64,000 nt of DNA from Mytilus galloprovincialis (lineage: Eukaryota; Mollusca; Bivalvia; Mytilida; Mytilidae): assembly GCF_965363235.1 (NCBI RefSeq), contig NC_134841.1:53217078-53281077 (forward strand). The letters are read 5' to 3'. The notes under the pieces were generated by a model that was given only the letters and a program-made list of their open reading frames with translations, had not been told where the DNA came from and searched no databases. Below, piece by piece: positions 36,818-64,000 of the stretch. The translations under genes were made by a program, and so were the position numbers. The number at the start of each line of letters is the position of its first letter. Position 1 is the stretch's first letter.

Positions 36818-36931
36818 TTGACTCATTGCATTGGCAATCACACTGCATCTCTTAATTTTATCATAGTGGTAAAAATCAACATTGACATGCTATTAGATAA
36901 ATAGTTCATAAATCTGTCTCCTGATTCTCAC

Positions 36932-36995
36932 CATAAAGGTCAGCTCCAGTGGCTATTGCCAGCCTCTATCCTTATGGACAAGCTGTGATGCTAAC
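36932..36995 (-). ncRNA. Candidate exon 3 of the minus-strand transcript
   Basis: On the minus strand, TATATTTTAG precedes 36995 and GTGAGAATCA follows 36932. It has no long open frame in phase with the previous exon, so UTR or non-coding is more likely. It lies just outside the palindrome stretch visible in this window. Confidence 0.3.
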
Positions 36996-37256
36996 CTAAA
37001 ATATAAAATGCTTCATCATCAAAAATTGGTTTATAGTATATAAAGGTAATACATGTTGAGAATATATGGATAAGACAGCTATCCAGCAACACAGCAATTA
37101 CTTATGCAATTAACAAATATCCTTTAATTTACTCATGTAGTGGTACTGATAAATGAGAGTAGACTTCTGACCAACTCTTATATTCCTAGAGCAATAAAGA
37201 AATTTTATAAAAAAATTGATATATTTTTTTTAACAAAATAACAGACTGGTACATAC

Positions 37257-37333
37257 CTTTGTATACTTTGTATAAGCTGTATAAGACAACCAAGTTTATT
37301 GCCAACAACATGAAAACATCTCACTGAAAGAAC
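37257..37333 (-). CDS. Candidate exon 2 of the minus-strand transcript (left-arm copy)
   Basis: On the minus strand, TTATTTTTAG precedes it and GTATGTACCA follows. In phase with exon 38135-38049 it reads GSFSEMFSCCWQ and then a stop, so it would carry the protein C-terminus. The mirror copy is at 63827-63903 (plus). Confidence 0.35.
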
Positions 37334-37790
37334 CTAAAAATAAAATAAAATGGATACATTAAATATTTTACAAATCCATTTCACTTGTCAAGATAACATT
37401 TACTAAATATTGTTTTGATTTCTTACTACATAAATCAGATTAGTATTATATCAACACTTAAGTTTGTAAAATTCCTATAAAGATGTAATACAAAAAAGAA
37501 GTAAAAGAATAATGACTTGATTTCAACTGCACAAAAATCTCAATAATTTACTGAGTTATCTCTTATTGAATAAACAAATCTTGGTTGAAATTGTCTCCCC
37601 TTGGAAGTAATATTTCAATCTGTAGGCTTACTTTTTATAATTTTAATAGTAAATCTTGTTGATATACCTGGTACACGTATCTTTAAATATTTAACAGGTA
37701 AAATAATTCAGTGTTTTGCATGTAGAAAATAAAGTTTTGTTTCTTGTTTCCCGGTAAGTTTTACACTCCTAACTAGGAGTCTTCTCCCCA

Positions 37791-37954
37791 TAGGCGGATC
37801 CAGTGGGGCCCTGGGGGGCCCGGGCCCCCCCTTTCGTGGGAAAAATTTGGTTGATTATATAGGGAATCATTGAAGCACGACTGGAGCCCCCCCCCCCCCC
37901 CCCCCTTAGGTCAGTCAGCGGGCCCCCCTTAGGAAAAGTTCTGGATCCGCCACT
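37791..37954 (-). mobile_element. GGCGGATCCAG MITE, subfamily A (left arm)
   Basis: Complete TIRs with subfamily A interior in reverse orientation. The C-run is 19 long here, against 11 and 12 in the mirrored copies at 52624 and 63214. Confidence 0.85.
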
Positions 37955-38048
37955 GCTCCTGTATTCGGAAGAAGAATAAGAAGTTTCTTAATTTTTATCA
38001 AATATTACTAGAAAATGTATAGAAATTGTTAGGCTTAAATAAACTTGC

Positions 38049-38135
38049 CTTTCTTATTTTCTTGGTAAAGCTGCAGAATTTCTGACTTGGTTGAAGATTT
38101 CTTTAACCATCTTCCATGGAATAATGCTCTGCTGG
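38049..38135 (-). CDS. Candidate exon 1 of the minus-strand transcript (left-arm copy)
   Basis: On the minus strand, TTCCATATCGCAG precedes 38135 and a GC-type donor GCAAGTTTAT follows 38049. The open frame reads SRALFHGRWLKKSSTKSEIL then QLYQENKK, basic and protein-like. Mirror copies are at 52443-52529 and 63033-63119. The function is not recognised. Confidence 0.4.
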
Positions 38136-38139
38136 CTGC

Positions 38140-38929
38140 GATATGGAAAAACTATTTGAGAAAAATAATTGAAACAATATTTAATGCAAAAGAATAATTA
38201 ACTGAGCATTACAATAATGATGTACAGTATATAACATTTCTTTACTTTGCTTTAAGTTGACATGTTAACATATCTTTTAAACTACCAGTCTTTGTTGGTA
38301 CAAAACCAGGGCAGCAGTCCTTTTGCGCCAATTACTGTTTTTCAGTCACCAGAATATCCCAAACTATCTCCCAATATCTTTTTTATCCAACCATGGCAAC
38401 TGGAGTAGTAAAATACAAATAATTTATTTAATTCAGACAAAAATACCATATATGATTTTAAACTTTCAAAATTTAACAAAAAGTGTAGTACCCCACAATT
38501 TCTACCACCCCTTACACTTTTATTAAGATGTACTAGAACACCCCTGCGATATCATGGGTTTGTGACTGAATTTCAGTATATAACTATGTATAGCCTTATT
38601 TTAGCCTGAACTTTTAGTATTTTTTTGGTATTGTCATCTGATAAAGTCATGCTGATTATAAGATACAGTTTTCTTAGCTTTTAAAATATTTCGTAAAAAC
38701 TGTGAATCAAAGAATTCAGCTTTATTTATAACTAACATAGGACAATGCCGTTGATTAAAAAATACTCAATTCTGGACCCTTTCATTTTGAAATGATTAAT
38801 ATTACTTGAGTGTTATGAATTAAGTTCCAGGTCGACAAGTTCAGTCTAGTAATGAGGGTAGTAATGCCTTTTGCCGTTAGACGTCAAATGGTCCTTTTCG
38901 GCTAGCATAAGGGTAAAATTGGAAAGCAT
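38140..38929. other. Non-coding part of the left arm
   Basis: AT-rich, with a short frame at 38323-38526 of no recognised family. It may include the 3' UTR-like tail of the adjacent retroelement remnant. Confidence 0.3.
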
Positions 38930-39680
38930 TTAACCATGATTCTTTAAATAGTTATCAAAGGTACTAGGATTATAATTTAGTACGCCAGACATGCGTTTCG
39001 TCTTTAAAATATTCTTAACGTGATCCTTCAGAAGTCTCAAAAGAGGGGCGAAAGATACCAGTGAGACAGTCAAAAACCAGCAGTAATAACGGTGCTCTGA
39101 AAGGATAAGCAGAAGGTCGTGTTGTTCATTTAAACCTGGTAATAGTTTAATTGGATAGGTCACATATGTAAAAAGGGAAGGGGATTGTAGTAATGACATA
39201 AGGAACATTTCTGATATCATCTGTAAAACGGTTATTCCATAAAAAAAGGTGAACCAAATTGTGATGGCATCCAGAAAATTTATGAAGGGATGATCTCAAC
39301 TTCATTATTTGGAACTCTTATTTGATAGCTTCCTTGTGAGCACCAGCCCTCTATCAAGGCAATCATGATAGGAAATACAAGCCAGGGAATATGGCATCAA
39401 TTGGAAGATGTACTCTGTATGCAGGCACTGCTGGAATGTTGCTACATAGAAATGGAAAGTTCACAATTGGGAAGCTGAAATCATCTCTTTTCATGCTTTT
39501 GTCGTAAAGTTTTGTTTTCAACCAACCCTCTTTGTCAATTTCTAGATGTAAGTCAAGATATGAGGCAGACGTAATTGTATCTGTTGTATCCTTTATCTCT
39601 AGTTCAATGGGATAGATGCTTTCAACTTAATCACCACATTTTGAGTTATTTAGTGTAAGATCATCATCAACTAACTCTTG
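38930..39680 (-). pseudogene. Reverse-transcriptase remnant, Penelope/LINE-like (left arm)
   Basis: On the minus strand, translation in changing frames gives a decayed catalytic box (LVDDDLTLNNSKCGD, compare YIDDVLSLNN), then IYPIELEIKDTTDTITSASY, LDLHLEIDKEGWLKTKLYDK, and DDFSFPIVNFPFLCSNIPA. A tail with HVKNILKTKRMSGVLNYNPS follows. I recall these motifs from a bivalve RT family usually placed with Penelope-like or non-LTR elements. It is a 3' fragment, decayed. Mirror copies lie at 50900-51647 and 61490-62237. Confidence 0.6.
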
Positions 39681-40983
39681 AAATCCCCAGGTTCCTTAAA
39701 AGGATAACAGTCAAAACTAAACAAAATTTAAACTTAAATTTAAAACTACTTGGTTTAATAATTCTAATTGTTTGCAATTCTTGAAAACTGTTGGAAGTCT
39801 TAAAAGGAATCCCTGTAATAATGAAAGCATTCAAATTATTTTGGACTCTTATGGACTCATGAGAAACTACTTCAACTAAAGTATGATCCCTATTAAAAGT
39901 ATGGCAATCAGATTTCTGTTGGATTGGCCAGCAATTTGATGTATTACTAAATGGTATTTCAAATATAATAAACTCATCATAGATACCAGGTTCAAAATAT
40001 TATATTTATACAAGAGCATGTTTCGTCTAAAAAAGATTCATCAGTTACGCTCGAATCAAACAATGTTTATAAGGCCAAATAGAGGACAAAGTTTAAGAGC
40101 ATTGAGAACCAAAAATTCCTTCAAGTTTTGCTAAATACAGCTAAGGTAATCTATTCCTGAGGAAGAAAAGCCTTAGTTTTTCAAAAGTTCCAAGTTTTGT
40201 TAACAGTTAATGACACCTTAAAAATACCTCGAGACCAAATACCCTTGTCTAGCGGCTCGGAAAATTTAACAGTCCCTCAAGTTATAACTAATATTTTTTC
40301 GCAAATACCCCCATAACATGATATATGTGTTTACAATTTTTATGTATTTATTATATTACAAATTTGCTTTAAATAATGATGGAAAGGTTATAAATATTAG
40401 TCGCAACAGGTTTTCTTTCCAGTTTTGTAAAATTTAAAAAAAAATTCCCTTTGACCAATGCAGACAATTAGCACAACCTTCACACCAAAATTTTATCATT
40501 TTTCTGGAATGGAATTTTCATTTCCCTCAAAATACCTTCTATATTTAAATGCTCATAACTTTTTTATTAGTGCAAGTTTTTGGAAAAACTAAAGTGTTTG
40601 TTAAAGTAAAAACACTGATGAAATTAAATCAATAATAAAATTCCAAAAGAAGAACACATCATTGTGTAATTAAGGTTACTTTTCTAAATTCATTTCAAAT
40701 CACATAAATTCCTACCCAGATTATTTGAGAAAAATCAATGAAAAGTTCAAAACTCAACCTACAGTTTTCAGAATTGCATCCTTGGCTGTCATAACATTAC
40801 TATCCTACAAATGGACGAAAAAGAAAAGTTGTTACTACAAGAGATCTTGAGAATGAAGCTTAGCGAAGATGCAATTAGTAGTATGAAGCTTTACAACACC
40901 ACCAACAACACAGGTCTTTGAGTGTAAATTTACCTAAGAATGTATGTAACCTTCTCAAGAGGCATGGAGGCCAGATGGTATCA
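39681..40983. other. Left-arm sequence with retroelement 3'-end motif
   Basis: Around 39990-40110 is a motif (TTGATTCGAGCGTAACTGATGA in mirror orientation, with an AGACGAAACATGC box) commonly found beside this RT family in bivalves. The rest is AT-rich. A short frame starting at 40812 (MDEKEKLLLQEILRMKLSED) is intriguing but unplaced. Confidence 0.35.
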
Positions 40984-41677
40984 GGTCCGTTCGCGCCCAA
41001 TATACTTTCGCACCCTACACGTTCGCACCTCGCACATTCGCACCCAAGGTCCGTTCGCACTCTACACGTTCGCGCCCAATTTAAATTCAAATTCCAGTTG
41101 AATATTTGGAAAATCATGATTGTTGTTTTTAATTGATTTGATGTAAATACTGAATGTATTTATAGCTTGGTATGAGTAAAAGATTGAATATTTTAACTGA
41201 AAAACCCAAAAGATAATTGTTTTTAACAGCTTGGTCCGATCTGAAACAATGAAATGATAAAATATAGCAATACACTATTATATAAACTAAAACATGATAA
41301 AATTTATTCAACTCACAAGAAAAAAATCGTAGTCAGAATCTCACTTCATTTTAAAACAAATCAATGAAATAAAGTTATAGGCAATACACTAAACAAAAGT
41401 TAAACATGATTAAGTGTTATCCAACACAAAATAAAACGTTGACAGATTCCCACTTAAATTAGAAAGGAATATTATTATTTTAAACAATACACTCTCAAAA
41501 ACATGATTAAGATTTATTCAACACATACAAAATTGCAAAGTTATTAAATACAAAACCAATTAGAATTGGGCGCGAACATGTAGGGTGCGAACAGACTTTG
41601 GGTGCGAACATGTGGGGTGCGAAAGTGAAATGGGGCGAACATGAGTGGGTGCGAACGTGAATGGGCGCGAACGGACC
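40984..41677. mobile_element. Foldback element with GTTCGCACCC-type terminal repeats (left arm)
   Basis: The left terminus is about 100 bp of degenerate decamer-like units (GTTCGCACCC, GTTCGCGCCC, CATTCGCACCC). The right terminus is the inverse of the same units. Outer ends are GGTCCGTTCGCGCCCA and its complement. The interior (~500 bp) is AT-rich. No clear target duplication. Mirror copies lie at 48899-49593 and 59489-60183. Confidence 0.7.
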
Positions 41678-41966
41678 CGGATTCAGGCCAGATTGGCATC
41701 TGGAATTCACAGAAACAACATGCCAGAAACTCAGCAAAGCATGGACAAACAGTTTACCTACAAGCAAGACTATGAAAAAAAACCTGAAGTTAAACATAGA
41801 TGTCTTACACATTGTTACACAGAGTGGGGAAAAAATAGTGGAACATAGAGAGGCCAAGCTAAAAAGTAAAGAGCAAGATGTTTACAGAAAAGGACAGTTG
41901 GACCCAGTACCTGCCTTTCTTAGCCATAGTACTAACTGCAAGAGAAAACTATTACCAGCACCATAG
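41678..41966 (+). other. Unassigned open frame beside the foldback element (left arm)
   Basis: One frame reads FRPDWHLEFTETTCQKLSKA ... TQSGEKIVEHREAKLKSKEQ and stops at 41966. An overlapping second frame is also open (SGIHRNNMPETQQSMDKQF). The composition is protein-like, and part of it may be the last exon of a host gene cut by the foldback element. No family recognised. The arms differ by one base here (near 41787). Confidence 0.3.
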
Positions 41967-42729
41967 ATGAGACAGTAACCCAGCAACTCATGCAACCAAA
42001 GGTCCTTTTAAGGACCACCCAAATCCTTCAAAAAGATATGTGAAATTGGTGTTTACACCAATTAAATAAAGTAAACATTTAATCTAATATTACTTAGGGG
42101 CAGTTTTTTCTTGTAATTTTGCTCAATATTTTGGAATAAGTCCTTTAAATGAAATATTTCTTATCAGAATGAGTAGGAATTTGCCCAAAACAGAAAAATT
42201 ATGAGCCCCTAATTTGAGATTTGCCGCAAAAGTTTCAACATATAAACTTAACAACCCCAAAATATGGTAAAATAGGCATCAAAAATTATTTTTCAATCAT
42301 TTACTATGAATTAACAATGAAATAAATATCTTTGCATTTCAAATTTGAAGCAAATGGTGCAAATTAGGGGACCAAAACGTCCATAAATTTGTCCTATAAA
42401 GGCCGGAGAACACAGTTATTTTCCCTTAATTGTCTATCAAAACATAATGACAATTAAAAAAAAAATCCACCTGCTCTTTTCCGATAAGGCTTGGTGTGCA
42501 TAAAGTTTGACTTTTATCCCAAAACATACCAAAAATTCAGAAAACTCTCGCTGCTCATTTTCAAACTTTTAGGACACCGGTATTGATAAAGCCAGAGAGC
42601 TTCCGAGAAGGGGAAATTCCACCTTTATTTTCGATTAGGGCAAGGTTCCGGTGCAAAAAGTTGACATGCATGTGTCTGGACACATGGACACAACGAATTA
42701 CAAATATTGAAGTCTTATCTTTCACCTAA
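41967..42729. other. Non-coding part of the left arm
   Basis: No recognised feature. 42398 is the position equivalent to the first base after the N gap. Confidence 0.35.
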
Positions 42730-42941
42730 GGCAACAACCATTTTCTTATCGAGGGGGGGGGGGGGCTGGGATTTTTATTATGTTCATAAATATTTTTTTC
42801 GGAACCTAAGCTTCCTCCGATGATTTTTTTTCCTATAATGTGGAACAGAAATACATTCTATTTTTCTCAAAACCATAAAATTTACATATTAATTCATTTT
42901 AATTTTTTAATTGATGTAAAATGTAAACTGCATGGCTCTGT

Positions 42942-43124
42942 CTATATCCTGGCATTGGCTGTTGTCTCTGTTGTTTTTTTTAGCCCACTTTCTACATAAT
43001 GATATTCTCTGAGTCCGTCATACAGGTACCACAGTCCTTGAATTTTAATACTGCAATTGAAGTGGCCACCATTGCCATATGTAAGAGTGAGTAGCTCCAA
43101 ATTATAAACATCCACTGTTTCCAA
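42942..43124 (-). CDS. Small USP-like frame inside the PIF-like element (left arm)
   Basis: 60 codons, reading METVDVYNLELLTLTYGNGG then HFNCSIKIQGLWYLYDGLRE. The G-G-H-F-x-C followed by W-Y-x-Y-D resembles the histidine box of ubiquitin-specific proteases (peptidase C19). ATCATAG just upstream would serve as a splice acceptor, so it may be the last exon of a captured or host gene. Cys box not present. Identical in all four arm copies. Confidence 0.35.
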   Translation of the reverse strand: METVDVYNLELLTLTYGNGGHFNCSIKIQGLWYLYDGLREYHYVESGLKKTTETTANARI

Positions 43125-43267
43125 CTATGATAATTGATATTCCATTGAAAAAAGAGGTATAAAAAATGATACAGAATGATACAAAGGAAAATACACAATC
43201 AGGGCTACTTTAAAAGACTGCTTTAATATGATACCATATCTATCCCTGTTATAAAATGACCATATCA

Positions 43268-43419
43268 GGGGCGGATCCAGCCATTTTAAAAAGGGGGGTT
43301 CCCAACCCAGAGTAATGGGGGGGGTTCCAGCTATATGCTCCCATTCAAATGCATTGATCGGCCAAAAAAAAGGGGGGGGGGGTTCCAAACCTGGAACCCC
43401 CCCTCTGGATCCGCGCCTG
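43268..43419 (-). mobile_element. GGCGGATCCAG MITE, subfamily B (left arm)
   Basis: Ends GGGGCGGATCCAG and CTGGATCCGCGCCTG. A 7-bp direct repeat CATATCA lies at 43261-43267 and 43420-43426, fitting a hAT-type duplication. Interior G-runs differ in length between arms. Confidence 0.85.
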
Positions 43420-43837
43420 CATATCATGTTTATAATAGTTGCAGTTTTAAGTATGTCTTAATCTAGTAGCATACATGTACATGCGGGAGATTTGGAATGC
43501 TTTTAAATATTTCTGGATCAAACACTTACAGGAAAATACAAAAAGTAATAAGGTATAAATATAAATCTTAGCTTAATCTGTAGACTGGACAGATGTTTAT
43601 AATCTGCTGTTTCACTGTCTCAACTGTTGTTATTTTCACTATTCTCAAATTCAGCAGTGCAAAATTTTTTTTCAAGCAGGTGACAGCATAATTTTTTTTT
43701 CAGCTACATTGCAAAACATAAATTTTTTTTTCAGCTACAGTTTAAAACATAATTTTTTTTCGTTCATCTAGGCCATTAAAATATTTTTTTCAAAAAAATC
43801 CCAGGCCCCCCCAGATAATAAAATGGTTGTTGCCTAA

Positions 43838-45207
43838 ATACAAACAAATAGTAAAAAAATTAAGAAAGAAAACATTCCAGGATAGTCCAAATGTAACAAA
43901 TATAGACCCCCCTTATTTTTACTGAAAAATCAAGTGTAGAAAATACATTTGTCTGTCTGTAAGTATATCCTCAGAACAAGAAAATCTTCATCAAACATAG
44001 CTGTGAGAACAGAGCTAGGGAGATACCCACTAGAGATGCATATAAAAACTCAAAGTATACTTTACTTTATATCAAGATTACCAAATTCTGAAATTAATCC
44101 ATTATTATATGAATCCTTTTTACTTTCTATAAGTTTAGATAATTCAGGTTGCTATACCTGGTTTACATATGTTAAAAATATTTTGAAAGAGGTAAACATG
44201 GACATATCCATTCTTGAGGGAAACAAAAGAAAAAAATACTGAAATTTAAAAAAAAAACAACCTTAAAACATCAATTATTAAATTTCTACACAAATATATT
44301 TTAACAAAAATTTGAAAAAATAGATAAAAAAAGTAAATTGTATTTATATAAAAGTTTAAAGCAAAATTTTAAAATGGAAAACTACTTAAACTGTAAATCT
44401 TTTGAAAAGAGAAGTAACATAACAAAAATGAGAATTACAGTACGCCCAAGGAGTTTGTAATCCCAAACTCCATACTCCGATATTTTTCCTGGTGTAACAC
44501 CAGGAAACTCCGACATCCCTCCCAAAATTCTCGGAGAAATTTGGGAGTATTCCCTCCGACTTCCGCGTAAATCCGCTACCTTTTGTTTATTGTATTAGCG
44601 ACATCTCTCCCAGTCTGGTGTGACGCGGTGTGACACCAGGTAATTAATTGCCCTAATCCGTCTGATCTATGCCGGCACGCGACAGTCAAGGTATGTGAGA
44701 TTTCTAATGTAATTAAACAATTGTATTTCCTGTCTATTGATTATCAGGTTATATCTGATTGCTTGAAACAAATGAAAGATTAAAATAAAAAGCAAAACGT
44801 TGTTGTTAATTCTTTCAATTACTCTGTACATTTTAATCAAGTTTTTAAACAACTATATTTGATTTTGACTTCCGTTTTTTTATCAGTAAATAAATATTTA
44901 ATTTACTGAAAGAGATATAATTGTGCAACAATAAACGGAGACTAACGCTGAATAAATGAGGGCAGTTTAAAGAAAAATTACACGTCTCAAAGTTGTTTAT
45001 ACTACAAGTAAAAAAGAAAATATTATTCCTTATCTGTTATGCTAATAATTCTACGCCATTTCCATTTTACGATTACAAAATAAAAGTTTTAAAATCCAAA
45101 ACGTTGTTGTTAATGCTTTCAATTGCATTAAAGTTTTATAAAAAAAATCTATATTTGATTATGACCTCGTTTTTTATTTATCGGTAATTGATATAACTTA
45201 CGAAAAC
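43838..45207. other. Inner part of the left arm
   Basis: It includes a 97-codon frame at 43949-44242 (LGRYPLEMHIKTQSILYFIS, LLYESFLLSISLDNSGCYTW), which resembles the hydrophobic C-terminal part of transposon-borne host-like proteins but is not identified. It also includes the hairpin cluster at 44450-44640. Two ~100-bp imperfect direct repeats share AAAACGTTGTTGTTAAT (near 44813 and 45099). Confidence 0.4.
44450..44640. repeat. Cluster of small perfect stem-loops
   Basis: There are successive palindromes: GGAGTTTG-TAATC-CCAAACTCC, the perfect TTCCTGGTGTAACACCAGGAA (20-base stem plus one), CTCCCAAAATTCTCGGAGAA closing with TTTGGGAG, and CTGGTGTGACGCGGTGTGAC closing with ACCAG. Conserved in all arm copies (mirror near 45932-46122). 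Confidence 0.6.
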
Positions 45208-45364
45208 AGTGGCGGATCCAGAAATTTTCATAAGTGGGGGCCCACTGACTGACCTAATAACGATTGGTTGCTTATATAGGGAATCACTGAAGCGTGACTG
45301 GAGCGGGCCCCCTCTTAGGTCAGTCAGTGGGCCCCCACTTATGAAAATTTCTGGATCCGCCACT
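45208..45364. mobile_element. Palindrome centre: folded-back subfamily A MITE
   Basis: Both outer ends read AGTGGCGGATCCAG going inward. The arms match to 45257 and from 45315. The 57-bp spacer (45258-45314) is the unbroken continuation of a subfamily A MITE read from the right side (CTCCAGTCACGCTTCAGTGA, TTCCCTATATAAGCAACCAA on the minus strand). After CAACCAA the sequence flips to the opposite strand of the same MITE end. Frames crossing it are artefacts of the symmetry. Confidence 0.9.
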
Positions 45365-47152
45365 GTTTTCGTAAGTTATATCAATTACCGATAAATAAAA
45401 AACGAGGTCATAATCAAATATAGATTTTTTTTATAAAACTTTAATGCAATTGAAAGCATTAACAACAACGTTTTGGATTTTAAAACTTTTATTTTGTAAT
45501 CGTAAAATGGAAATGGCGTAGAATTATTAGCATAACAGATAAGGAATAATATTTTCTTTTTTACTTGTAGTATAAACAACTTTGAGACGTGTAATTTTTC
45601 TTTAAACTGCCCTCATTTATTCAGCGTTAGTCTCCGTTTATTGTTGCACAATTATATCTCTTTCAGTAAATTAAATATTTATTTACTGATAAAAAAACGG
45701 AAGTCAAAATCAAATATAGTTGTTTAAAAACTTGATTAAAATGTACAGAGTAATTGAAAGAATTAACAACAACGTTTTGCTTTTTATTTTAATCTTTCAT
45801 TTGTTTCAAGCAATCAGATATAACCTGATAATCAATAGACAGGAAATACAATTGTTTAATTACATTAGAAATCTCACATACCTTGACTGTCGCGTGCCGG
45901 CATAGATCAGACGGATTAGGGGAATTAATTACCTGGTGTCACACCGCGTCACACCAGACTGGGAGAGATGTCGCTAATACAATAAACAAAAGGTAGCGGA
46001 TTTACGCGGAAGTCGGAGGGAATACTCCCAAATTTCTCCGAGAATTTTGGGAGGGATGTCGGAGTTTCCTGGTGTTACACCAGGAAAAATATCGGAGTAT
46101 GGAGTTTGGGATTACAAACTCCTTGGGCGTACTGTAATTCTCATTTTTGTTATGTTACTTCTCTTTTCAAAAGATTTACAGTTTAAGTAGTTTTCCATTT
46201 TAAAATTTTGCTTTAAACTTTTATATAAATACAATTTACTTTTTTTATCTATTTTTTCAAATTTTTGTTAAAATATATTTGTGTAGAAATTTAATAATTG
46301 ATGTTTTAAGGTTGTTTTTTTTTTAAATTTCAGTATTTTTTTCTTTTGTTTCCCTCAAGAATGGATATGTCCATGTTTACCTCTTTCAAAATATTTTTAA
46401 CATATGTAAACCAGGTATAGCAACCTGAATTATCTAAACTTATAGAAAGTAAAAAGGATTCATATAATAATGGATTAATTTCAGAATTTGGTAATCTTGA
46501 TATAAAGTAAAGTATACTTTGAGTTTTTATATGCATCTCTAGTGGGTATCTCCCTAGCTCTGTTCTCACAGCTATGTTTGATGAAGATTTTCTTGTTCTG
46601 AGGATATACTTACAGACAGACAAATGTATTTTCTACACTTGATTTTTCAGTAAAAATAAGGGGGGTCTATATTTGTTACATTTGGACTATCCTGGAATGT
46701 TTTCTTTCTTAATTTTTTTACTATTTGTTTGTATTTAGGCAACAACCATTTTATTATCTGGGGGGGCCTGGGATTTTTTTGAAAAAAATATTTTAATGGC
46801 CTAGATGAACGAAAAAAAATTATGTTTTAAACTGTAGCTGAAAAAAAAATTTATGTTTTGCAATGTAGCTGAAAAAAAAATTATGCTGTCACCTGCTTGA
46901 AAAAAAATTTTGCACTGCTGAATTTGAGAATAGTGAAAATAACAACAGTTGAGACAGTGAAACAGCAGATTATAAACATCTGTCCAGTCTACAGATTAAG
47001 CTAAGATTTATATTTATACCTTATTACTTTTTGTATTTTCCTGTAAGTGTTTGATCCAGAAATATTTAAAAGCATTCCAAATCTCCCGCATGTACATGTA
47101 TGCTACTAGATTAAGACATACTTAAAACTGCAACTATTATAAACATGATATG

Positions 47153-47308
47153 CAGGCGCGGATCCAGAGGGGGGGTTCCAGGTTTGGAACCCCCCCCCTT
47201 TTTTTTGGCCGATCAATGCATTTGAATGGGAGCATATAGCTGGAACCCCCCCCCCCCCCATTACTCTGGGTTGGGAACCCCCCTTTTTAAAATGGCTGGA
47301 TCCGCCCC
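47153..47308 (+). mobile_element. GGCGGATCCAG MITE, subfamily B (right arm)
   Basis: Mirror of 43268-43419, flanked by TGATATG on both sides. Its C-run is 14 where the left arm has 8. Confidence 0.85.
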
Positions 47309-47451
47309 TGATATGGTCATTTTATAACAGGGATAGATATGGTATCATATTAAAGCAGTCTTTTAAAGTAGCCCTGATTGTGTATTTTCCTTTGTATCAT
47401 TCTGTATCATTTTTTATACCTCTTTTTTCAATGGAATATCAATTATCATAG

Positions 47452-47634
47452 TTGGAAACAGTGGATGTTTATAATTTGGAGCTACTCACTCTTACATATG
47501 GCAATGGTGGCCACTTCAATTGCAGTATTAAAATTCAAGGACTGTGGTACCTGTATGACGGACTCAGAGAATATCATTATGTAGAAAGTGGGCTAAAAAA
47601 AACAACAGAGACAACAGCCAATGCCAGGATATAG
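47452..47634 (+). CDS. Small USP-like frame (right arm)
   Basis: Identical protein to 42942-43124. See that entry. Confidence 0.35.
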   Translation: METVDVYNLELLTLTYGNGGHFNCSIKIQGLWYLYDGLREYHYVESGLKKTTETTANARI

Positions 47635-48898
47635 ACAGAGCCATGCAGTTTACATTTTACATCAATTAAAAAATTAAAATGAATTAATATGTAAATTTTA
47701 TGGTTTTGAGAAAAATAGAATGTATTTCTGTTCCACATTATAGGAAAAAAAATCATCGGAGGAAGCTTAGGTTCCGAAAAAAATATTTATGAACATAATA
47801 AAAATCCCAGCCCCCCCCCCCCCCTCGATAAGAAAATGGTTGTTGCCTTAGGTGAAAGATAAGACTTCAATATTTGTAATTCGTTGTGTCCATGTGTCCA
47901 GACACATGCATGTCAACTTTTTGCACCGGAACCTTGCCCTAATCGAAAATAAAGGTGGAATTTCCCCTTCTCGGAAGCTCTCTGGCTTTATCAATACCGG
48001 TGTCCTAAAAGTTTGAAAATGAGCAGCGAGAGTTTTCTGAATTTTTGGTATGTTTTGGGATAAAAGTCAAACTTTATGCACACCAAGCCTTATCGGAAAA
48101 GAGCAGGTGGATTTTTTTTTTAATTGTCATTATGTTTTGATAGACAATTAAGGGAAAATAACTGTGTTCTCCGGCCTTTATAGGACAAATTTATGGACGT
48201 TTTGGTCCCCTAATTTGCACCATTTGCTTCAAATTTGAAATGCAAAGATATTTATTTCATTGTTAATTCATAGTAAATGATTGAAAAATAATTTTTGATG
48301 CCTATTTTACCATATTTTGGGGTTGTTAAGTTTATATGTTGAAACTTTTGCGGCAAATCTCAAATTAGGGGCTCATAATTTTTCTGTTTTGGGCAAATTC
48401 CTACTCATTCTGATAAGAAATATTTCATTTAAAGGACTTATTCCAAAATATTGAGCAAAATTACAAGAAAAAACTGCCCCTAAGTAATATTAGATTAAAT
48501 GTTTACTTTATTTAATTGGTGTAAACACCAATTTCACATATCTTTTTGAAGGATTTGGGTGGTCCTTAAAAGGACCTTTGGTTGCATGAGTTGCTGGGTT
48601 ACTGTCTCATCTATGGTGCTGGTAATAGTTTTCTCTTGCAGTTAGTACTATGGCTAAGAAAGGCAGGTACTGGGTCCAACTGTCCTTTTCTGTAAACATC
48701 TTGCTCTTTACTTTTTAGCTTGGCCTCTCTATGTTCCACTATTTTTTCCCCACTCTGTGTAACAATGTGTAAGACATCTATGTTTAACTTCAGGGTTTTT
48801 TTCATAGTCTTGCTTGTAGGTAAACTGTTTGTCCATGCTTTGCTGAGTTTCTGGCATGTTGTTTCTGTGAATTCCAGATGCCAATCTGGCCTGAATCC

Positions 48899-52442: not shown

Positions 52443-52529
52443 CCAGCAGAGCATTATTCCATGGAAGATGGTTAAAGAAATCTTCAACCAAGTCAGAAAT
52501 TCTGCAGCTTTACCAAGAAAATAAGAAAG
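52443..52529 (+). CDS. Candidate exon 1, right-arm copy
   Basis: Identical to 38135-38049 with the same GC-type donor. Its downstream exon falls beyond the N gap in this contig. Confidence 0.4.
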
Positions 52530-52623
52530 GCAAGTTTATTTAAGCCTAACAATTTCTATACATTTTCTAGTAATATTTGATAAAAATTAAGAAACTTCTT
52601 ATTCTTCTTCCGAATACAGGAGC

Positions 52624-52778
52624 AGTGGCGGATCCAGAACTTTTCCTAAGGGGGGCCCGCTGACTGACCTAAGGGGGGGGGGGCTCCAGTCGTGCTTCAA
52701 TGATTCCCTATATAATCAACCAAATTTTTCCCACGAAAGGGGGGCCCGGGCCCCCCAGGGCCCCACTGGATCCGCCTA
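52624..52778 (+). mobile_element. GGCGGATCCAG MITE, subfamily A (right arm)
   Basis: Mirror of 37791-37954, with an 11-base G-run. Confidence 0.85.
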
Positions 52779-52887
52779 TGGGGAGAAGACTCCTAGTTAG
52801 GAGTGTAAAACTTACCGGGAAACAAGAAACAAAACTTTATTTTCTACATGCAAAACACTGAATTATTTTACCTGTTAAATATTTAAA

Positions 52888-52987
52888 NNNNNNNNNNNNN
52901 NNNNNNNNNNNNNNNNNNNNNNNNNNNNNNNNNNNNNNNNNNNNNNNNNNNNNNNNNNNNNNNNNNNNNNNNNNNNNNNNNNNNNNN
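52888..52987. other. Assembly gap of exactly 100 N
   Basis: A run of 100 N, the conventional size for a scaffold join of unknown length. The flanks belong to the same 10.5-kb sequence (see findings). Confidence 0.99.
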
Positions 52988-55847
52988 AAAGGCCGGAGAA
53001 CACAGTTATTTTCCCTTAATTGTCTATCAAAACATAATGACAATTAAAAAAAAAATCCACCTGCTCTTTTCCGATAAGGCTTGGTGTGCATAAAGTTTGA
53101 CTTTTATCCCAAAACATACCAAAAATTCAGAAAACTCTCGCTGCTCATTTTCAAACTTTTAGGACACCGGTATTGATAAAGCCAGAGAGCTTCCGAGAAG
53201 GGGAAATTCCACCTTTATTTTCGATTAGGGCAAGGTTCCGGTGCAAAAAGTTGACATGCATGTGTCTGGACACATGGACACAACGAATTACAAATATTGA
53301 AGTCTTATCTTTCACCTAAGGCAACAACCATTTTCTTATCGAGGGGGGGGGGGGGCTGGGATTTTTATTATGTTCATAAATATTTTTTTCGGAACCTAAG
53401 CTTCCTCCGATGATTTTTTTTCCTATAATGTGGAACAGAAATACATTCTATTTTTCTCAAAACCATAAAATTTACATATTAATTCATTTTAATTTTTTAA
53501 TTGATGTAAAATGTAAACTGCATGGCTCTGTCTATATCCTGGCATTGGCTGTTGTCTCTGTTGTTTTTTTTAGCCCACTTTCTACATAATGATATTCTCT
53601 GAGTCCGTCATACAGGTACCACAGTCCTTGAATTTTAATACTGCAATTGAAGTGGCCACCATTGCCATATGTAAGAGTGAGTAGCTCCAAATTATAAACA
53701 TCCACTGTTTCCAACTATGATAATTGATATTCCATTGAAAAAAGAGGTATAAAAAATGATACAGAATGATACAAAGGAAAATACACAATCAGGGCTACTT
53801 TAAAAGACTGCTTTAATATGATACCATATCTATCCCTGTTATAAAATGACCATATCAGGGGCGGATCCAGCCATTTTAAAAAGGGGGGTTCCCAACCCAG
53901 AGTAATGGGGGGGGTTCCAGCTATATGCTCCCATTCAAATGCATTGATCGGCCAAAAAAAAGGGGGGGGGGGTTCCAAACCTGGAACCCCCCCTCTGGAT
54001 CCGCGCCTGCATATCATGTTTATAATAGTTGCAGTTTTAAGTATGTCTTAATCTAGTAGCATACATGTACATGCGGGAGATTTGGAATGCTTTTAAATAT
54101 TTCTGGATCAAACACTTACAGGAAAATACAAAAAGTAATAAGGTATAAATATAAATCTTAGCTTAATCTGTAGACTGGACAGATGTTTATAATCTGCTGT
54201 TTCACTGTCTCAACTGTTGTTATTTTCACTATTCTCAAATTCAGCAGTGCAAAATTTTTTTTCAAGCAGGTGACAGCATAATTTTTTTTTCAGCTACATT
54301 GCAAAACATAAATTTTTTTTTCAGCTACAGTTTAAAACATAATTTTTTTTCGTTCATCTAGGCCATTAAAATATTTTTTTCAAAAAAATCCCAGGCCCCC
54401 CCAGATAATAAAATGGTTGTTGCCTAAATACAAACAAATAGTAAAAAAATTAAGAAAGAAAACATTCCAGGATAGTCCAAATGTAACAAATATAGACCCC
54501 CCTTATTTTTACTGAAAAATCAAGTGTAGAAAATACATTTGTCTGTCTGTAAGTATATCCTCAGAACAAGAAAATCTTCATCAAACATAGCTGTGAGAAC
54601 AGAGCTAGGGAGATACCCACTAGAGATGCATATAAAAACTCAAAGTATACTTTACTTTATATCAAGATTACCAAATTCTGAAATTAATCCATTATTATAT
54701 GAATCCTTTTTACTTTCTATAAGTTTAGATAATTCAGGTTGCTATACCTGGTTTACATATGTTAAAAATATTTTGAAAGAGGTAAACATGGACATATCCA
54801 TTCTTGAGGGAAACAAAAGAAAAAAATACTGAAATTTAAAAAAAAAACAACCTTAAAACATCAATTATTAAATTTCTACACAAATATATTTTAACAAAAA
54901 TTTGAAAAAATAGATAAAAAAAGTAAATTGTATTTATATAAAAGTTTAAAGCAAAATTTTAAAATGGAAAACTACTTAAACTGTAAATCTTTTGAAAAGA
55001 GAAGTAACATAACAAAAATGAGAATTACAGTACGCCCAAGGAGTTTGTAATCCCAAACTCCATACTCCGATATTTTTCCTGGTGTAACACCAGGAAACTC
55101 CGACATCCCTCCCAAAATTCTCGGAGAAATTTGGGAGTATTCCCTCCGACTTCCGCGTAAATCCGCTACCTTTTGTTTATTGTATTAGCGACATCTCTCC
55201 CAGTCTGGTGTGACGCGGTGTGACACCAGGTAATTAATTGCCCTAATCCGTCTGATCTATGCCGGCACGCGACAGTCAAGGTATGTGAGATTTCTAATGT
55301 AATTAAACAATTGTATTTCCTGTCTATTGATTATCAGGTTATATCTGATTGCTTGAAACAAATGAAAGATTAAAATAAAAAGCAAAACGTTGTTGTTAAT
55401 TCTTTCAATTACTCTGTACATTTTAATCAAGTTTTTAAACAACTATATTTGATTTTGACTTCCGTTTTTTTATCAGTAAATAAATATTTAATTTACTGAA
55501 AGAGATATAATTGTGCAACAATAAACGGAGACTAACGCTGAATAAATGAGGGCAGTTTAAAGAAAAATTACACGTCTCAAAGTTGTTTATACTACAAGTA
55601 AAAAAGAAAATATTATTCCTTATCTGTTATGCTAATAATTCTACGCCATTTCCATTTTACGATTACAAAATAAAAGTTTTAAAATCCAAAACGTTGTTGT
55701 TAATGCTTTCAATTGCATTAAAGTTTTATAAAAAAAATCTATATTTGATTATGACCTCGTTTTTTATTTATCGGTAATTGATATAACTTACGAAAACAGT
55801 GGCGGATCCAGAAATTTTCATAAGTGGGGGCCCACTGACTGACCTAA
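52988..55847 (+). repeat. Left arm, second assembled copy (inner part)
   Basis: Matches 42398-45257 at an offset of 10590 with no difference noticed, including the arm-specific base near 44650/55240. It carries the PIF-like element (53320-54424), USP-like frame (53532-53714, minus), subfamily B MITE (53858-54009) and hairpin cluster (about 55040-55230). Confidence 0.95.
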
Positions 55848-55954
55848 TAACGATTGGTTGCTTATATAGGGAATCACTGAAGCGTGACTGGAGCGGGCCC
55901 CCTCTTAGGTCAGTCAGTGGGCCCCCACTTATGAAAATTTCTGGATCCGCCACT
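55798..55954. mobile_element. Second assembled palindrome centre
   Basis: Identical to 45208-45364, with spacer 55848-55904. Confidence 0.9.
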
Positions 55955-57327
55955 GTTTTCGTAAGTTATATCAATTACCGATAAATAAAAAACGAGGTCA
56001 TAATCAAATATAGATTTTTTTTATAAAACTTTAATGCAATTGAAAGCATTAACAACAACGTTTTGGATTTTAAAACTTTTATTTTGTAATCGTAAAATGG
56101 AAATGGCGTAGAATTATTAGCATAACAGATAAGGAATAATATTTTCTTTTTTACTTGTAGTATAAACAACTTTGAGACGTGTAATTTTTCTTTAAACTGC
56201 CCTCATTTATTCAGCGTTAGTCTCCGTTTATTGTTGCACAATTATATCTCTTTCAGTAAATTAAATATTTATTTACTGATAAAAAAACGGAAGTCAAAAT
56301 CAAATATAGTTGTTTAAAAACTTGATTAAAATGTACAGAGTAATTGAAAGAATTAACAACAACGTTTTGCTTTTTATTTTAATCTTTCATTTGTTTCAAG
56401 CAATCAGATATAACCTGATAATCAATAGACAGGAAATACAATTGTTTAATTACATTAGAAATCTCACATACCTTGACTGTCGCGTGCCGGCATAGATCAG
56501 ACGGATTAGGGGAATTAATTACCTGGTGTCACACCGCGTCACACCAGACTGGGAGAGATGTCGCTAATACAATAAACAAAAGGTAGCGGATTTACGCGGA
56601 AGTCGGAGGGAATACTCCCAAATTTCTCCGAGAATTTTGGGAGGGATGTCGGAGTTTCCTGGTGTTACACCAGGAAAAATATCGGAGTATGGAGTTTGGG
56701 ATTACAAACTCCTTGGGCGTACTGTAATTCTCATTTTTGTTATGTTACTTCTCTTTTCAAAAGATTTACAGTTTAAGTAGTTTTCCATTTTAAAATTTTG
56801 CTTTAAACTTTTATATAAATACAATTTACTTTTTTTATCTATTTTTTCAAATTTTTGTTAAAATATATTTGTGTAGAAATTTAATAATTGATGTTTTAAG
56901 GTTGTTTTTTTTTTAAATTTCAGTATTTTTTTCTTTTGTTTCCCTCAAGAATGGATATGTCCATGTTTACCTCTTTCAAAATATTTTTAACATATGTAAA
57001 CCAGGTATAGCAACCTGAATTATCTAAACTTATAGAAAGTAAAAAGGATTCATATAATAATGGATTAATTTCAGAATTTGGTAATCTTGATATAAAGTAA
57101 AGTATACTTTGAGTTTTTATATGCATCTCTAGTGGGTATCTCCCTAGCTCTGTTCTCACAGCTATGTTTGATGAAGATTTTCTTGTTCTGAGGATATACT
57201 TACAGACAGACAAATGTATTTTCTACACTTGATTTTTCAGTAAAAATAAGGGGGGTCTATATTTGTTACATTTGGACTATCCTGGAATGTTTTCTTTCTT
57301 AATTTTTTTACTATTTGTTTGTATTTA

Positions 57328-58437
57328 GGCAACAACCATTTTATTATCTGGGGGGGCCTGGGATTTTTTTGAAAAAAATATTTTAATGGCCTAGATGAAC
57401 GAAAAAAAATTATGTTTTAAACTGTAGCTGAAAAAAAAATTTATGTTTTGCAATGTAGCTGAAAAAAAAATTATGCTGTCACCTGCTTGAAAAAAAATTT
57501 TGCACTGCTGAATTTGAGAATAGTGAAAATAACAACAGTTGAGACAGTGAAACAGCAGATTATAAACATCTGTCCAGTCTACAGATTAAGCTAAGATTTA
57601 TATTTATACCTTATTACTTTTTGTATTTTCCTGTAAGTGTTTGATCCAGAAATATTTAAAAGCATTCCAAATCTCCCGCATGTACATGTATGCTACTAGA
57701 TTAAGACATACTTAAAACTGCAACTATTATAAACATGATATGCAGGCGCGGATCCAGAGGGGGGGTTCCAGGTTTGGAACCCCCCCCCTTTTTTTTGGCC
57801 GATCAATGCATTTGAATGGGAGCATATAGCTGGAACCCCCCCCCCCCCCATTACTCTGGGTTGGGAACCCCCCTTTTTAAAATGGCTGGATCCGCCCCTG
57901 ATATGGTCATTTTATAACAGGGATAGATATGGTATCATATTAAAGCAGTCTTTTAAAGTAGCCCTGATTGTGTATTTTCCTTTGTATCATTCTGTATCAT
58001 TTTTTATACCTCTTTTTTCAATGGAATATCAATTATCATAGTTGGAAACAGTGGATGTTTATAATTTGGAGCTACTCACTCTTACATATGGCAATGGTGG
58101 CCACTTCAATTGCAGTATTAAAATTCAAGGACTGTGGTACCTGTATGACGGACTCAGAGAATATCATTATGTAGAAAGTGGGCTAAAAAAAACAACAGAG
58201 ACAACAGCCAATGCCAGGATATAGACAGAGCCATGCAGTTTACATTTTACATCAATTAAAAAATTAAAATGAATTAATATGTAAATTTTATGGTTTTGAG
58301 AAAAATAGAATGTATTTCTGTTCCACATTATAGGAAAAAAAATCATCGGAGGAAGCTTAGGTTCCGAAAAAAATATTTATGAACATAATAAAAATCCCAG
58401 CCCCCCCCCCCCCCTCGATAAGAAAATGGTTGTTGCC
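57328..58437. mobile_element. PIF/Harbinger-like element (second right arm)
   Basis: Same as 46738-47847. It contains the USP-like frame at 58042-58224 and the subfamily B MITE at 57743-57898. Confidence 0.65.
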
Positions 58438-59488
58438 TTAGGTGAAAGATAAGACTTCAATATTTGTAATTCGTTGTGTCCATGTGTCCAGACACATGCA
58501 TGTCAACTTTTTGCACCGGAACCTTGCCCTAATCGAAAATAAAGGTGGAATTTCCCCTTCTCGGAAGCTCTCTGGCTTTATCAATACCGGTGTCCTAAAA
58601 GTTTGAAAATGAGCAGCGAGAGTTTTCTGAATTTTTGGTATGTTTTGGGATAAAAGTCAAACTTTATGCACACCAAGCCTTATCGGAAAAGAGCAGGTGG
58701 ATTTTTTTTTTAATTGTCATTATGTTTTGATAGACAATTAAGGGAAAATAACTGTGTTCTCCGGCCTTTATAGGACAAATTTATGGACGTTTTGGTCCCC
58801 TAATTTGCACCATTTGCTTCAAATTTGAAATGCAAAGATATTTATTTCATTGTTAATTCATAGTAAATGATTGAAAAATAATTTTTGATGCCTATTTTAC
58901 CATATTTTGGGGTTGTTAAGTTTATATGTTGAAACTTTTGCGGCAAATCTCAAATTAGGGGCTCATAATTTTTCTGTTTTGGGCAAATTCCTACTCATTC
59001 TGATAAGAAATATTTCATTTAAAGGACTTATTCCAAAATATTGAGCAAAATTACAAGAAAAAACTGCCCCTAAGTAATATTAGATTAAATGTTTACTTTA
59101 TTTAATTGGTGTAAACACCAATTTCACATATCTTTTTGAAGGATTTGGGTGGTCCTTAAAAGGACCTTTGGTTGCATGAGTTGCTGGGTTACTGTCTCAT
59201 CTATGGTGCTGGTAATAGTTTTCTCTTGCAGTTAGTACTATGGCTAAGAAAGGCAGGTACTGGGTCCAACTGTCCTTTTCTGTAAACATCTTGCTCTTTA
59301 CTTTTTAGCTTGGCCTCTCTATGTTCCACTATTTTTTCCCCACTCTGTGTAACAATGTGTAAGACATCTATGTTTAACTTCAGGGTTTTTTTCATAGTCT
59401 TGCTTGTAGGTAAACTGTTTGTCCATGCTTTGCTGAGTTTCTGGCATGTTGTTTCTGTGAATTCCAGATGCCAATCTGGCCTGAATCC

Positions 59489-60183
59489 GGGTCCGTTCGC
59501 GCCCATTCACGTTCGCACCCACTCATGTTCGCCCCATTTCACTTTCGCACCCCACATGTTCGCACCCAAAGTCTGTTCGCACCCTACATGTTCGCGCCCA
59601 ATTCTAATTGGTTTTGTATTTAATAACTTTGCAATTTTGTATGTGTTGAATAAATCTTAATCATGTTTTTGAGAGTGTATTGTTTAAAATAATAATATTC
59701 CTTTCTAATTTAAGTGGGAATCTGTCAACGTTTTATTTTGTGTTGGATAACACTTAATCATGTTTAACTTTTGTTTAGTGTATTGCCTATAACTTTATTT
59801 CATTGATTTGTTTTAAAATGAAGTGAGATTCTGACTACGATTTTTTTCTTGTGAGTTGAATAAATTTTATCATGTTTTAGTTTATATAATAGTGTATTGC
59901 TATATTTTATCATTTCATTGTTTCAGATCGGACCAAGCTGTTAAAAACAATTATCTTTTGGGTTTTTCAGTTAAAATATTCAATCTTTTACTCATACCAA
60001 GCTATAAATACATTCAGTATTTACATCAAATCAATTAAAAACAACAATCATGATTTTCCAAATATTCAACTGGAATTTGAATTTAAATTGGGCGCGAACG
60101 TGTAGAGTGCGAACGGACCTTGGGTGCGAATGTGCGAGGTGCGAACGTGTAGGGTGCGAAAGTATATTGGGCGCGAACGGACC
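59489..60183. mobile_element. Foldback GTTCGCACCC element (second right arm)
   Basis: Same as 48899-49593. Confidence 0.7.
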
Positions 60184-61489
60184 TGATACCATCTGGCCTC
60201 CATGCCTCTTGAGAAGGTTACATACATTCTTAGGTAAATTTACACTCAAAGACCTGTGTTGTTGGTGGTGTTGTAAAGCTTCATACTACTAATTGCATCT
60301 TCGCTAAGCTTCATTCTCAAGATCTCTTGTAGTAACAACTTTTCTTTTTCGTCCATTTGTAGGATAGTAATGTTATGACAGCCAAGGATGCAATTCTGAA
60401 AACTGTAGGTTGAGTTTTGAACTTTTCATTGATTTTTCTCAAATAATCTGGGTAGGAATTTATGTGATTTGAAATGAATTTAGAAAAGTAACCTTAATTA
60501 CACAATGATGTGTTCTTCTTTTGGAATTTTATTATTGATTTAATTTCATCAGTGTTTTTACTTTAACAAACACTTTAGTTTTTCCAAAAACTTGCACTAA
60601 TAAAAAAGTTATGAGCATTTAAATATAGAAGGTATTTTGAGGGAAATGAAAATTCCATTCCAGAAAAATGATAAAATTTTGGTGTGAAGGTTGTGCTAAT
60701 TGTCTGCATTGGTCAAAGGGAATTTTTTTTTAAATTTTACAAAACTGGAAAGAAAACCTGTTGCGACTAATATTTATAACCTTTCCATCATTATTTAAAG
60801 CAAATTTGTAATATAATAAATACATAAAAATTGTAAACACATATATCATGTTATGGGGGTATTTGCGAAAAAATATTAGTTATAACTTGAGGGACTGTTA
60901 AATTTTCCGAGCCGCTAGACAAGGGTATTTGGTCTCGAGGTATTTTTAAGGTGTCATTAACTGTTAACAAAACTTGGAACTTTTGAAAAACTAAGGCTTT
61001 TCTTCCTCAGGAATAGATTACCTTAGCTGTATTTAGCAAAACTTGAAGGAATTTTTGGTTCTCAATGCTCTTAAACTTTGTCCTCTATTTGGCCTTATAA
61101 ACATTGTTTGATTCGAGCGTAACTGATGAATCTTTTTTAGACGAAACATGCTCTTGTATAAATATAATATTTTGAACCTGGTATCTATGATGAGTTTATT
61201 ATATTTGAAATACCATTTAGTAATACATCAAATTGCTGGCCAATCCAACAGAAATCTGATTGCCATACTTTTAATAGGGATCATACTTTAGTTGAAGTAG
61301 TTTCTCATGAGTCCATAAGAGTCCAAAATAATTTGAATGCTTTCATTATTACAGGGATTCCTTTTAAGACTTCCAACAGTTTTCAAGAATTGCAAACAAT
61401 TAGAATTATTAAACCAAGTAGTTTTAAATTTAAGTTTAAATTTTGTTTAGTTTTGACTGTTATCCTTTTAAGGAACCTGGGGATTTCAA

Positions 61490-62237
61490 GAGTTAGTTGA
61501 TGATGATCTTACACTAAATAACTCAAAATGTGGTGATTAAGTTGAAAGCATCTATCCCATTGAACTAGAGATAAAGGATACAACAGATACAATTACGTCT
61601 GCCTCATATCTTGACTTACATCTAGAAATTGACAAAGAGGGTTGGTTGAAAACAAAACTTTACGACAAAAGCATGAAAAGAGATGATTTCAGCTTCCCAA
61701 TTGTGAACTTTCCATTTCTATGTAGCAACATTCCAGCAGTGCCTGCATACAGAGTACATCTTCCAATTGATGCCATATTCCCTGGCTTGTATTTCCTATC
61801 ATGATTGCCTTGATAGAGGGCTGGTGCTCACAAGGAAGCTATCAAATAAGAGTTCCAAATAATGAAGTTGAGATCATCCCTTCATAAATTTTCTGGATGC
61901 CATCACAATTTGGTTCACCTTTTTTTATGGAATAACCGTTTTACAGATGATATCAGAAATGTTCCTTATGTCATTACTACAATCCCCTTCCCTTTTTACA
62001 TATGTGACCTATCGAATTAAACTATTACCAGGTTTAAATGAACAACACGACCTTCTGCTTATCCTTTCAGAGCACCGTTATTACTGCTGGTTTTTGACTG
62101 TCTCACTGGTATCTTTCGCCCCTCTTTTGAGACTTCTGAAGGATCACGTTAAGAATATTTTAAAGACGAAACGCATGTCTGGCGTACTAAATTATAATCC
62201 TAGTACCTTTGATAACTATTTAAAGAATCATGGTTAA
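61490..62237 (+). pseudogene. Reverse-transcriptase remnant (second right arm)
   Basis: Same as 50900-51647. Confidence 0.6.
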
Positions 62238-63032
62238 ATGCTTTCCAATTTTACCCTTATGCTAGCCGAAAAGGACCATTTGACGTCTAACGGCAAAAGG
62301 CATTACTACCCTCATTACTAGACTGAACTTGTCGACCTGGAACTTAATTCATAACACTCAAGTAATATTAATCATTTCAAAAATGAAAGGGTCCAGAATT
62401 GAGTATTTTTTAATCAACGGCATTGTCCTATGTTAGTTATAAATAAAGCTGAATTCTTTGATTCACAGTTTTTACGAAATATTTTAAAAGCTAAGAAAAC
62501 TGTATCTTATAATCAGCATGACTTTATCAGATGACAATACCAAAAAAATACTAAAAGTTCAGGCTAAAATAAGGCTATACATAGTTATATACTGAAATTC
62601 AGTCACAAACCCATGATATCGCAGGGGTGTTCTAGTACATCTTAATAAAAGTGTAAGGGGTGGTAGAAATTGTGGGGTACTACACTTTTTGTTAAATTTT
62701 GAAAGTTTAAAATCATATATGGTATTTTTGTCTGAATTAAATAAATTATTTGTATTTTACTACTCCAGTTGCCATGGTTGGATAAAAAAGATATTGGGAG
62801 ATAGTTTGGGATATTCTGGTGACTGAAAAACAGTAATTGGCGCAAAAGGACTGCTGCCCTGGTTTTGTACCAACAAAGACTGGTAGTTTAAAAGATATGT
62901 TAACATGTCAACTTAAAGCAAAGTAAAGAAATGTTATATACTGTACATCATTATTGTAATGCTCAGTTAATTATTCTTTTGCATTAAATATTGTTTCAAT
63001 TATTTTTCTCAAATAGTTTTTCCATATCGCAG

Positions 63033-63119
63033 CCAGCAGAGCATTATTCCATGGAAGATGGTTAAAGAAATCTTCAACCAAGTCAGAAATTCTGCAGCTT
63101 TACCAAGAAAATAAGAAAG
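63033..63119 (+). CDS. Candidate exon 1, second right-arm copy
   Basis: Same sequence as 52443-52529. Here the following exon (63827-63903) is also present. Confidence 0.4.
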
Positions 63120-63213
63120 GCAAGTTTATTTAAGCCTAACAATTTCTATACATTTTCTAGTAATATTTGATAAAAATTAAGAAACTTCTTATTCTTCTTC
63201 CGAATACAGGAGC

Positions 63214-63369
63214 AGTGGCGGATCCAGAACTTTTCCTAAGGGGGGCCCGCTGACTGACCTAAGGGGGGGGGGGGCTCCAGTCGTGCTTCAATGATTCCCT
63301 ATATAATCAACCAAATTTTTCCCACGAAAGGGGGGCCCGGGCCCCCCAGGGCCCCACTGGATCCGCCTA
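63214..63369 (+). mobile_element. GGCGGATCCAG MITE, subfamily A (second right arm)
   Basis: Same as 52624-52778, with a 12-base G-run. Confidence 0.85.
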
Positions 63370-63826
63370 TGGGGAGAAGACTCCTAGTTAGGAGTGTAAA
63401 ACTTACCGGGAAACAAGAAACAAAACTTTATTTTCTACATGCAAAACACTGAATTATTTTACCTGTTAAATATTTAAAGATACGTGTACCAGGTATATCA
63501 ACAAGATTTACTATTAAAATTATAAAAAGTAAGCCTACAGATTGAAATATTACTTCCAAGGGGAGACAATTTCAACCAAGATTTGTTTATTCAATAAGAG
63601 ATAACTCAGTAAATTATTGAGATTTTTGTGCAGTTGAAATCAAGTCATTATTCTTTTACTTCTTTTTTGTATTACATCTTTATAGGAATTTTACAAACTT
63701 AAGTGTTGATATAATACTAATCTGATTTATGTAGTAAGAAATCAAAACAATATTTAGTAAATGTTATCTTGACAAGTGAAATGGATTTGTAAAATATTTA
63801 ATGTATCCATTTTATTTTATTTTTAG

Positions 63827-63903
63827 GTTCTTTCAGTGAGATGTTTTCATGTTGTTGGCAATAAACTTGGTTGTCTTATACAGCTTATACAAAGTATACA
63901 AAG
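63827..63903 (+). CDS. Candidate exon 2, right-arm copy
   Basis: TTATTTTTAG precedes it and GTATGTACCA follows. In phase with 63033-63119 it adds GSFSEMFSCCWQ and a stop. Mirror of 37257-37333. Confidence 0.35.
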
Positions 63904-64000
63904 GTATGTACCAGTCTGTTATTTTGTTAAAAAAAATATATCAATTTTTTTATAAAATTTCTTTATTGCTCTAGGAATATAAGAGTTGGTCAGAAGTCTA

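Follow-up and report, generated by a model that had tools for sequence, protein, structure and literature searches.

A long palindrome inside a DNA transposon of the mussel Mytilus galloprovincialis, probably a recent inverted duplication made in situ

Human fold-back inverted duplications have been described with single-copy spacers of 766-70,466 bp, and the junctions reported for that series carry homologous repeats in 3 of 21 cases, microhomology in 13 and inserted bases in 5 of 21 (PMC3907307). In the account given of ODIRA, the inverted repeats involved lie 40-80 nt apart and the process primarily yields an inverted triplication that has two palindromic junctions (PMC10766186). In yeast, inverted duplications primed by fold-back are described, as is the stabilisation of broken dicentrics via repeats (PMC10622511).

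Here we describe an event of this already known kind whose history is unusually clear at one site of the M. galloprovincialis genome. The palindrome found there is probably a real, recent, in-situ inverted duplication, made by fold-back or sister fusion at a MITE (MITE2) and followed by MITE-mediated rejoining. The window, by which we mean the whole stretch of 64,000 bp that was analysed, is C4:53217078-53281077 (C4 being NC_134841.1) in a genome of 1.38 Gb and 331 contigs; positions are in window numbering, which is also used for flanking DNA past its ends. Myticins are mussel peptides, and Myticin-prepro (PF10690) has 17 matches in this genome, all above cut-off, at C10:43.9-51.9 Mb and C1:94.6 Mb, and none in 14 control genomes. 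Judged by titles and the starts of abstracts, none of the listed matches in the open-licence literature has a mussel palindrome of this kind as its subject.

Layout of the palindrome and the contig join

Self-comparison of the window returns inverted repeats with two centres, near 45286 and near 55876. Between them lies a 100-N gap (52888-52987), the sole run of N in 214 kb of examined sequence, which separates contig A from contig B; the 10,490 bp before the gap (42398-52887) recur as the 10,491 bp after it (52988-63478), the two differing by a 1-bp indel in a G run. The most economical reading of these sequences is that contigs A and B form an unmerged overlap, and that a single palindrome has had its centre printed twice, so that the contig join calls for caution here. 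The first-pass annotation had taken 37160-64000 as the extent of the palindrome; that stretch contains the centre twice, around the gap, and the right arm runs on to 66562, which is 2,562 bp past the end of the window. Its left arm start, 37160, merely pairs with the last base of the window, the actual start being 34598 (34596 in the alignment). What it had said of long, near-identical inverted arms around a spacer of 57 bp holds good, and self-comparison places that spacer at 45258-45314.

Collapsed to one copy, the palindrome measures about 21.4 kb, with arms of about 10.66 kb and the 57-bp spacer, and extends from a left boundary at 34596-34598 to a right boundary at 66562-66564, outside the window and reached by including flanking DNA in the comparison. 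Contig A holds the complete left arm (34598-45257, + strand), the spacer and, up to the end of the contig, the right arm that is its inverted match (45315-52887, - strand). Contig B starts with a second printing of the inner left arm (52988-55847, + strand, equal to 42398-45257), followed by the second printing of the spacer (55848-55904) and by the right arm (55905-64000 within the window, - strand).

Within the 10,644 aligned bases, 3 substitutions (0.028%) and 6 indel places separate the arms, which amounts to an identity of 99.97% outside indels, and the outermost 3.2 kb of the arms are free of differences; larger mismatch counts from BLAST include the spacer aligned to its own reverse complement. 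Chance cannot produce arms this long. Most of the indels sit in homopolymers. This position of the indels, together with that of the palindrome at a contig join where 10.49 kb is printed twice, speaks for an artefact, whether from a fold-back read, from an inverted chimera or from faulty scaffolding, an origin of the palindrome that we consider decidedly unlikely. All 9 difference places are present whether the right arm is taken from contig A or from contig B (one C-run indel measures 8 bp in A, against 7 bp in B), which argues against such an artefact to the degree that overlapping contigs, which may have reads in common and fall short of full independence, can do so; the flanks, described below, argue against it as well.

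The outer boundary of both arms is the 5' terminus of a 165-bp MITE, MITE1 in the left arm (34598-34762, + strand), which has an ATAAA target duplication. Further inward lie a self-inverse dispersed repeat (36425-36808), absent at this point in relatives, and MITE4 (37789-37955, - strand), a member of the same MITE family as MITE1 that is found also in four relatives of the block described below. The inner end of the arm is formed by the 5' part of a transposon that we call E1 (bases 1-772 at 44436-45206, + strand; 99.35% identical to the E1 copy on C14, eight copies having been compared) and by bases 1-51 of MITE2 (45207-45257, + strand). The first-pass annotation had listed exons, MITEs, a foldback element and a reverse-transcriptase (RT) remnant as shared by the arms; the MITEs and the foldback element (the self-inverse repeat) are indeed there, and the exons and the RT remnant found no backing in a Pfam scan of 10 stop-to-stop arm frames, picked from about 72, which returned no family. 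A tandem-repeat scan of 44400-45250 returned nothing. Elsewhere, the segments 6809-7951 and 23715-25954 form direct repeats with a similarity of about 86-90%, of which further copies stand outside the window, near -2900 to -1180 and 156250-157510, and a 1,964-bp stretch past the window (114203-116166) is 96% identical to its own reverse complement and is perhaps a fold-back element.

The ancestral site and the age of the palindrome

The arms belong to a paralogous block with at least nine core relatives, one at about C10:24.97 Mb and the others at about C4:36.55, 50.87, 54.50, 57.88, 58.02, 58.16, 59.93 and 97.21 Mb, a count that is a lower bound since at most 40 candidates were scored per search. 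Among the matches listed, further places on C4 match the outer part of the arm at 79-90%, and most block relatives lie within some 10 Mb of C4 (about 50-60 Mb), a segmental-duplication cluster. Outside the palindrome, the left flank continues the block as in the C4:57.88-Mb relative, which is without MITE1 and has its ATAAA target in a single copy.

E1 is a TA-flanked DNA transposon of 2,630 bp with 34-bp inverted ends, and the longest frame of the copy examined is at most 93 aa. Directly beyond the right arm, positions 66563-66697 are the last 135 bases of E1, which the C14 copy sets at 2496-2630; matches to this tail elsewhere, at 99-100%, contain it in full to within a base or two in 37 of 39 cases and nearly in full in the rest, among the matches listed. 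The block resumes from 66696, as judged by matches at C4:57.88, 58.01 and 59.93 Mb, and the sequence of the C4:59.93-Mb relative, when read, has both sides of the block joined without E1. Unrelated DNA was rejected as an account of the right flank, this being E1 tail and block. Because the left side keeps E1 bases 1-772 and the right side bases 2496-2630, with 1,723 bases missing between them and the block then continuing as in the relative free of E1, the flanks of the palindrome are, by their sequence, the two sides of one E1 insertion, and the inverted copy was placed in situ inside E1.

That the flanks are two halves of one E1 site supports the scaffold join too, and it weighs on the artefact considered above: a fold-back read would produce a single false junction, with identical flanks to either side, whereas here the flanks differ and belong to a single insertion, and such a read leaves the second, correctly returning outer junction unexplained. 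Just after the right flank of the palindrome begins a tandem array of 29 kb (66909-95922, past the window), its unit about 88 bp long, and similar units occur at the same place in the C4:59.93-Mb relative.

The nesting of the elements gives the order of events: duplication of the block, then E1, then MITE2, then the palindrome. The arm core differs from four block relatives by 0.42-1.43%, and the E1 part of the arm lies 0.26-0.78% from eight further copies of E1; the low divergence of E1 therefore makes the palindrome young regardless of conversion. An old palindrome in which gene conversion between the arms has preserved their likeness, on the model of the palindromes of mammalian sex chromosomes, would agree with the near identity seen here, and conversion of such a kind has been described in mammals (PMC8981503). 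We nevertheless regard this history as very improbable, for the arm contains E1 at the small distances just given, and the palindrome probably does not predate the E1 burst. Among the three origins first proposed, then, a recent inverted duplication stands, gene conversion between the arms is possible and not needed, and a library or assembly chimera is unlikely in view of the E1 3' end and the block beyond the right arm.

The centre and the outer junction

Six complete copies of the MITE family concerned were checked; they are 155-167 bp long, and their 5-bp target duplications agree at 5 of 5 bases in five copies and at 4 of 5 in one. At the centre of the palindrome, MITE2 runs through bases 1-51, after which come TAACGA and, in inverted orientation, bases 102 to 1; the spacer accordingly comprises a 6-bp filler (45258-45263) plus the inverted MITE2 bases 102 to 52 (45264-45314). 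Among the matches listed, the entire centre is matched solely by the two printings of the locus itself and 38 other places match one half each, and the four copies of the MITE2 subfamily that were fetched are ordinary MITEs, none of them fold-back. An ordinary MITE insertion was rejected as the centre on both these grounds, and by its sequence the centre reads as a fold-back junction inside MITE2. One MITE lies on both sides of the spacer by construction, with the filler at the join and no clear microhomology. The MITE part of the spacer runs on into the right arm and not into the left arm, which bears the original flank; joining of sister ends, at bases 51 and 102, fits this a little better than fold-back priming from the left side, and both are possible.

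At the outer junction, the 5' end of MITE1', the right arm's copy, which equals MITE1 in 165 of 165 bases, stands against E1 base 2496; AA is common to both flanks, and the junction lies 0-2 bp from the terminus of the MITE. The flank, when read outward from the MITE, is GTTAA, and AA also ends 5 of the 6 MITE targets checked; this suggests that an earlier MITE, MITE3, may once have stood there, one that is absent from the present sequence at the junction. Every MITE compared equals MITE1 over at least the first 17 bases, and a short exchange at the MITE terminus therefore fits. Given that MITE1 and MITE1' agree over 165 bp, an exchange between MITE1 and MITE3 would have been confined to the first 17-33 bases, unless its traces were overwritten afterwards.

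A junction at a MITE terminus, with a flank that resembles MITE targets, is also what a transposase might leave if it had cut the 5' end of MITE1 and inserted it into E1 by one-ended or alternative transposition, the latter being on record for maize Ac (PMC3744419). Equal 5-bp duplications were found neither around the inserted stretch (GAAAA on the left, TTAAC on the right) nor around the whole palindrome (ATAAA and TTAAC), and the centre lies inside a MITE, not at a MITE end; we consider this origin unlikely. A macrotransposon bounded by MITEs was rejected for the whole structure, equal target duplications being absent.

The inverted duplication that we favour would have started from the block carrying the 2.63-kb E1 with MITE2 inserted in it, and probably with MITE3 in opposite orientation near the 3' end of E1. 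A break or a stalled fork at MITE2 would have led to fold-back or sister joining, the ends being joined at MITE2 bases 51 and 102 with the 6-bp filler, and 10.66 kb of the left side would have been continued as its reverse complement. The inverted copy would have extended as far as the MITE1 5' terminus, where it would have been rejoined to what was left of the E1 3' end, 1,723 bp of E1 being lost. The sequence itself establishes the structure, its ancestral site, the nesting and both junctions; we infer the origin in a break or fork, the presence of MITE3 and the part of MITE-terminus homology in the reconnection. Against this account stand the absence of MITE3 from the present sequence, the full identity of MITE1 and MITE1', the filler in place of clear inverted microhomology at the centre, and a spacer much shorter than those of the human fold-back series. 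Such a structure can be expected to be unstable. Palindromes that are long and have short spacers are regarded as unstable, and intact young palindromes with a readable ancestral site should, on that presumption, seldom be caught. Should reads confirm the locus, it would be a natural case in which one MITE family shaped both ends of an inverted duplication.

A second palindrome on C10 and comparison with known systems

The block relative on C10 is itself a palindrome (24966676-24972097 and, inverted, 24973046-24978467), with 5,422-bp arms that are 100% identical, a spacer of 948 bp and no N within 24967790-24977353; it matches the C4 arm at 98.6% over 4.2 kb. Its centre lies at block positions 41825 and about 42765, with a filler of at most 11 bp beside a G run, and since this differs from the centre on C4 it marks a separate event. 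Its right arm ends at the start of a dispersed repeat, where 36 of 39 other matches to the flank begin within one base of the boundary, among the matches listed, and no palindrome sequence resumes in the 2.5 kb fetched beyond the repeat on that side. In the other block relatives no opposite-strand partner was found among the matches listed. Palindromes thus account for 2 of the 10 loci with core matches of at least 90% among the matches listed, on two chromosomes and with different centres, and both have near-perfect arms, with an outer boundary that coincides with an end of some mobile or dispersed element. It is possible, as a tentative suggestion, that the block is a recurrent maker of palindromes and that in this genome the ends of mobile elements serve again and again as starting and closing points of inverted duplications; the C10 palindrome makes recurrence testable.

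On C4, the transposon halves, the target duplications and the relative free of E1 fix both the order of events and the two junctions, and they allow comparison with described systems. Arms that are large and more than 99% identical are shared with mammalian sex-chromosome palindromes as described in PMC8981503 and PMC6790999; unlike those, the mussel palindrome has no gene recognised in the 10 frames scanned, and its recent origin explains the identity. The locus resembles ODIRA in having a template-switch junction with a short loop, 40-80 nt there and 57 bp here; it differs in its product, the collapsed locus having two arms and one centre against the triplication with two palindromic junctions described for ODIRA (PMC10766186).

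With the human fold-back duplications both mussel loci share an inverted copy that adjoins the original across a single-copy spacer, of 57 bp on C4 and 948 bp on C10, and some junctions in that series likewise have repeats or inserted bases. The C4 spacer is far under the 766 bp at which the reported human range begins, the C10 spacer falls inside that range, and the arms measure kilobases here against megabases there (PMC3907307). Terminal deletion or translocation is described in the human series (PMC3907307), and a fold-back duplication is expected to pass through a dicentric intermediate that loses its distal part, whereas on C4 the distal side is retained, the ancestral E1 3' end and the block both being present. 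As in the yeast cases, an inverted duplication near a break would have been followed by repair through repeats; there, as described, the outcome is capture of a telomere through translocation or loss of a centromere, and here the original distal side appears to have been rejoined at the end of a MITE (PMC10622511).
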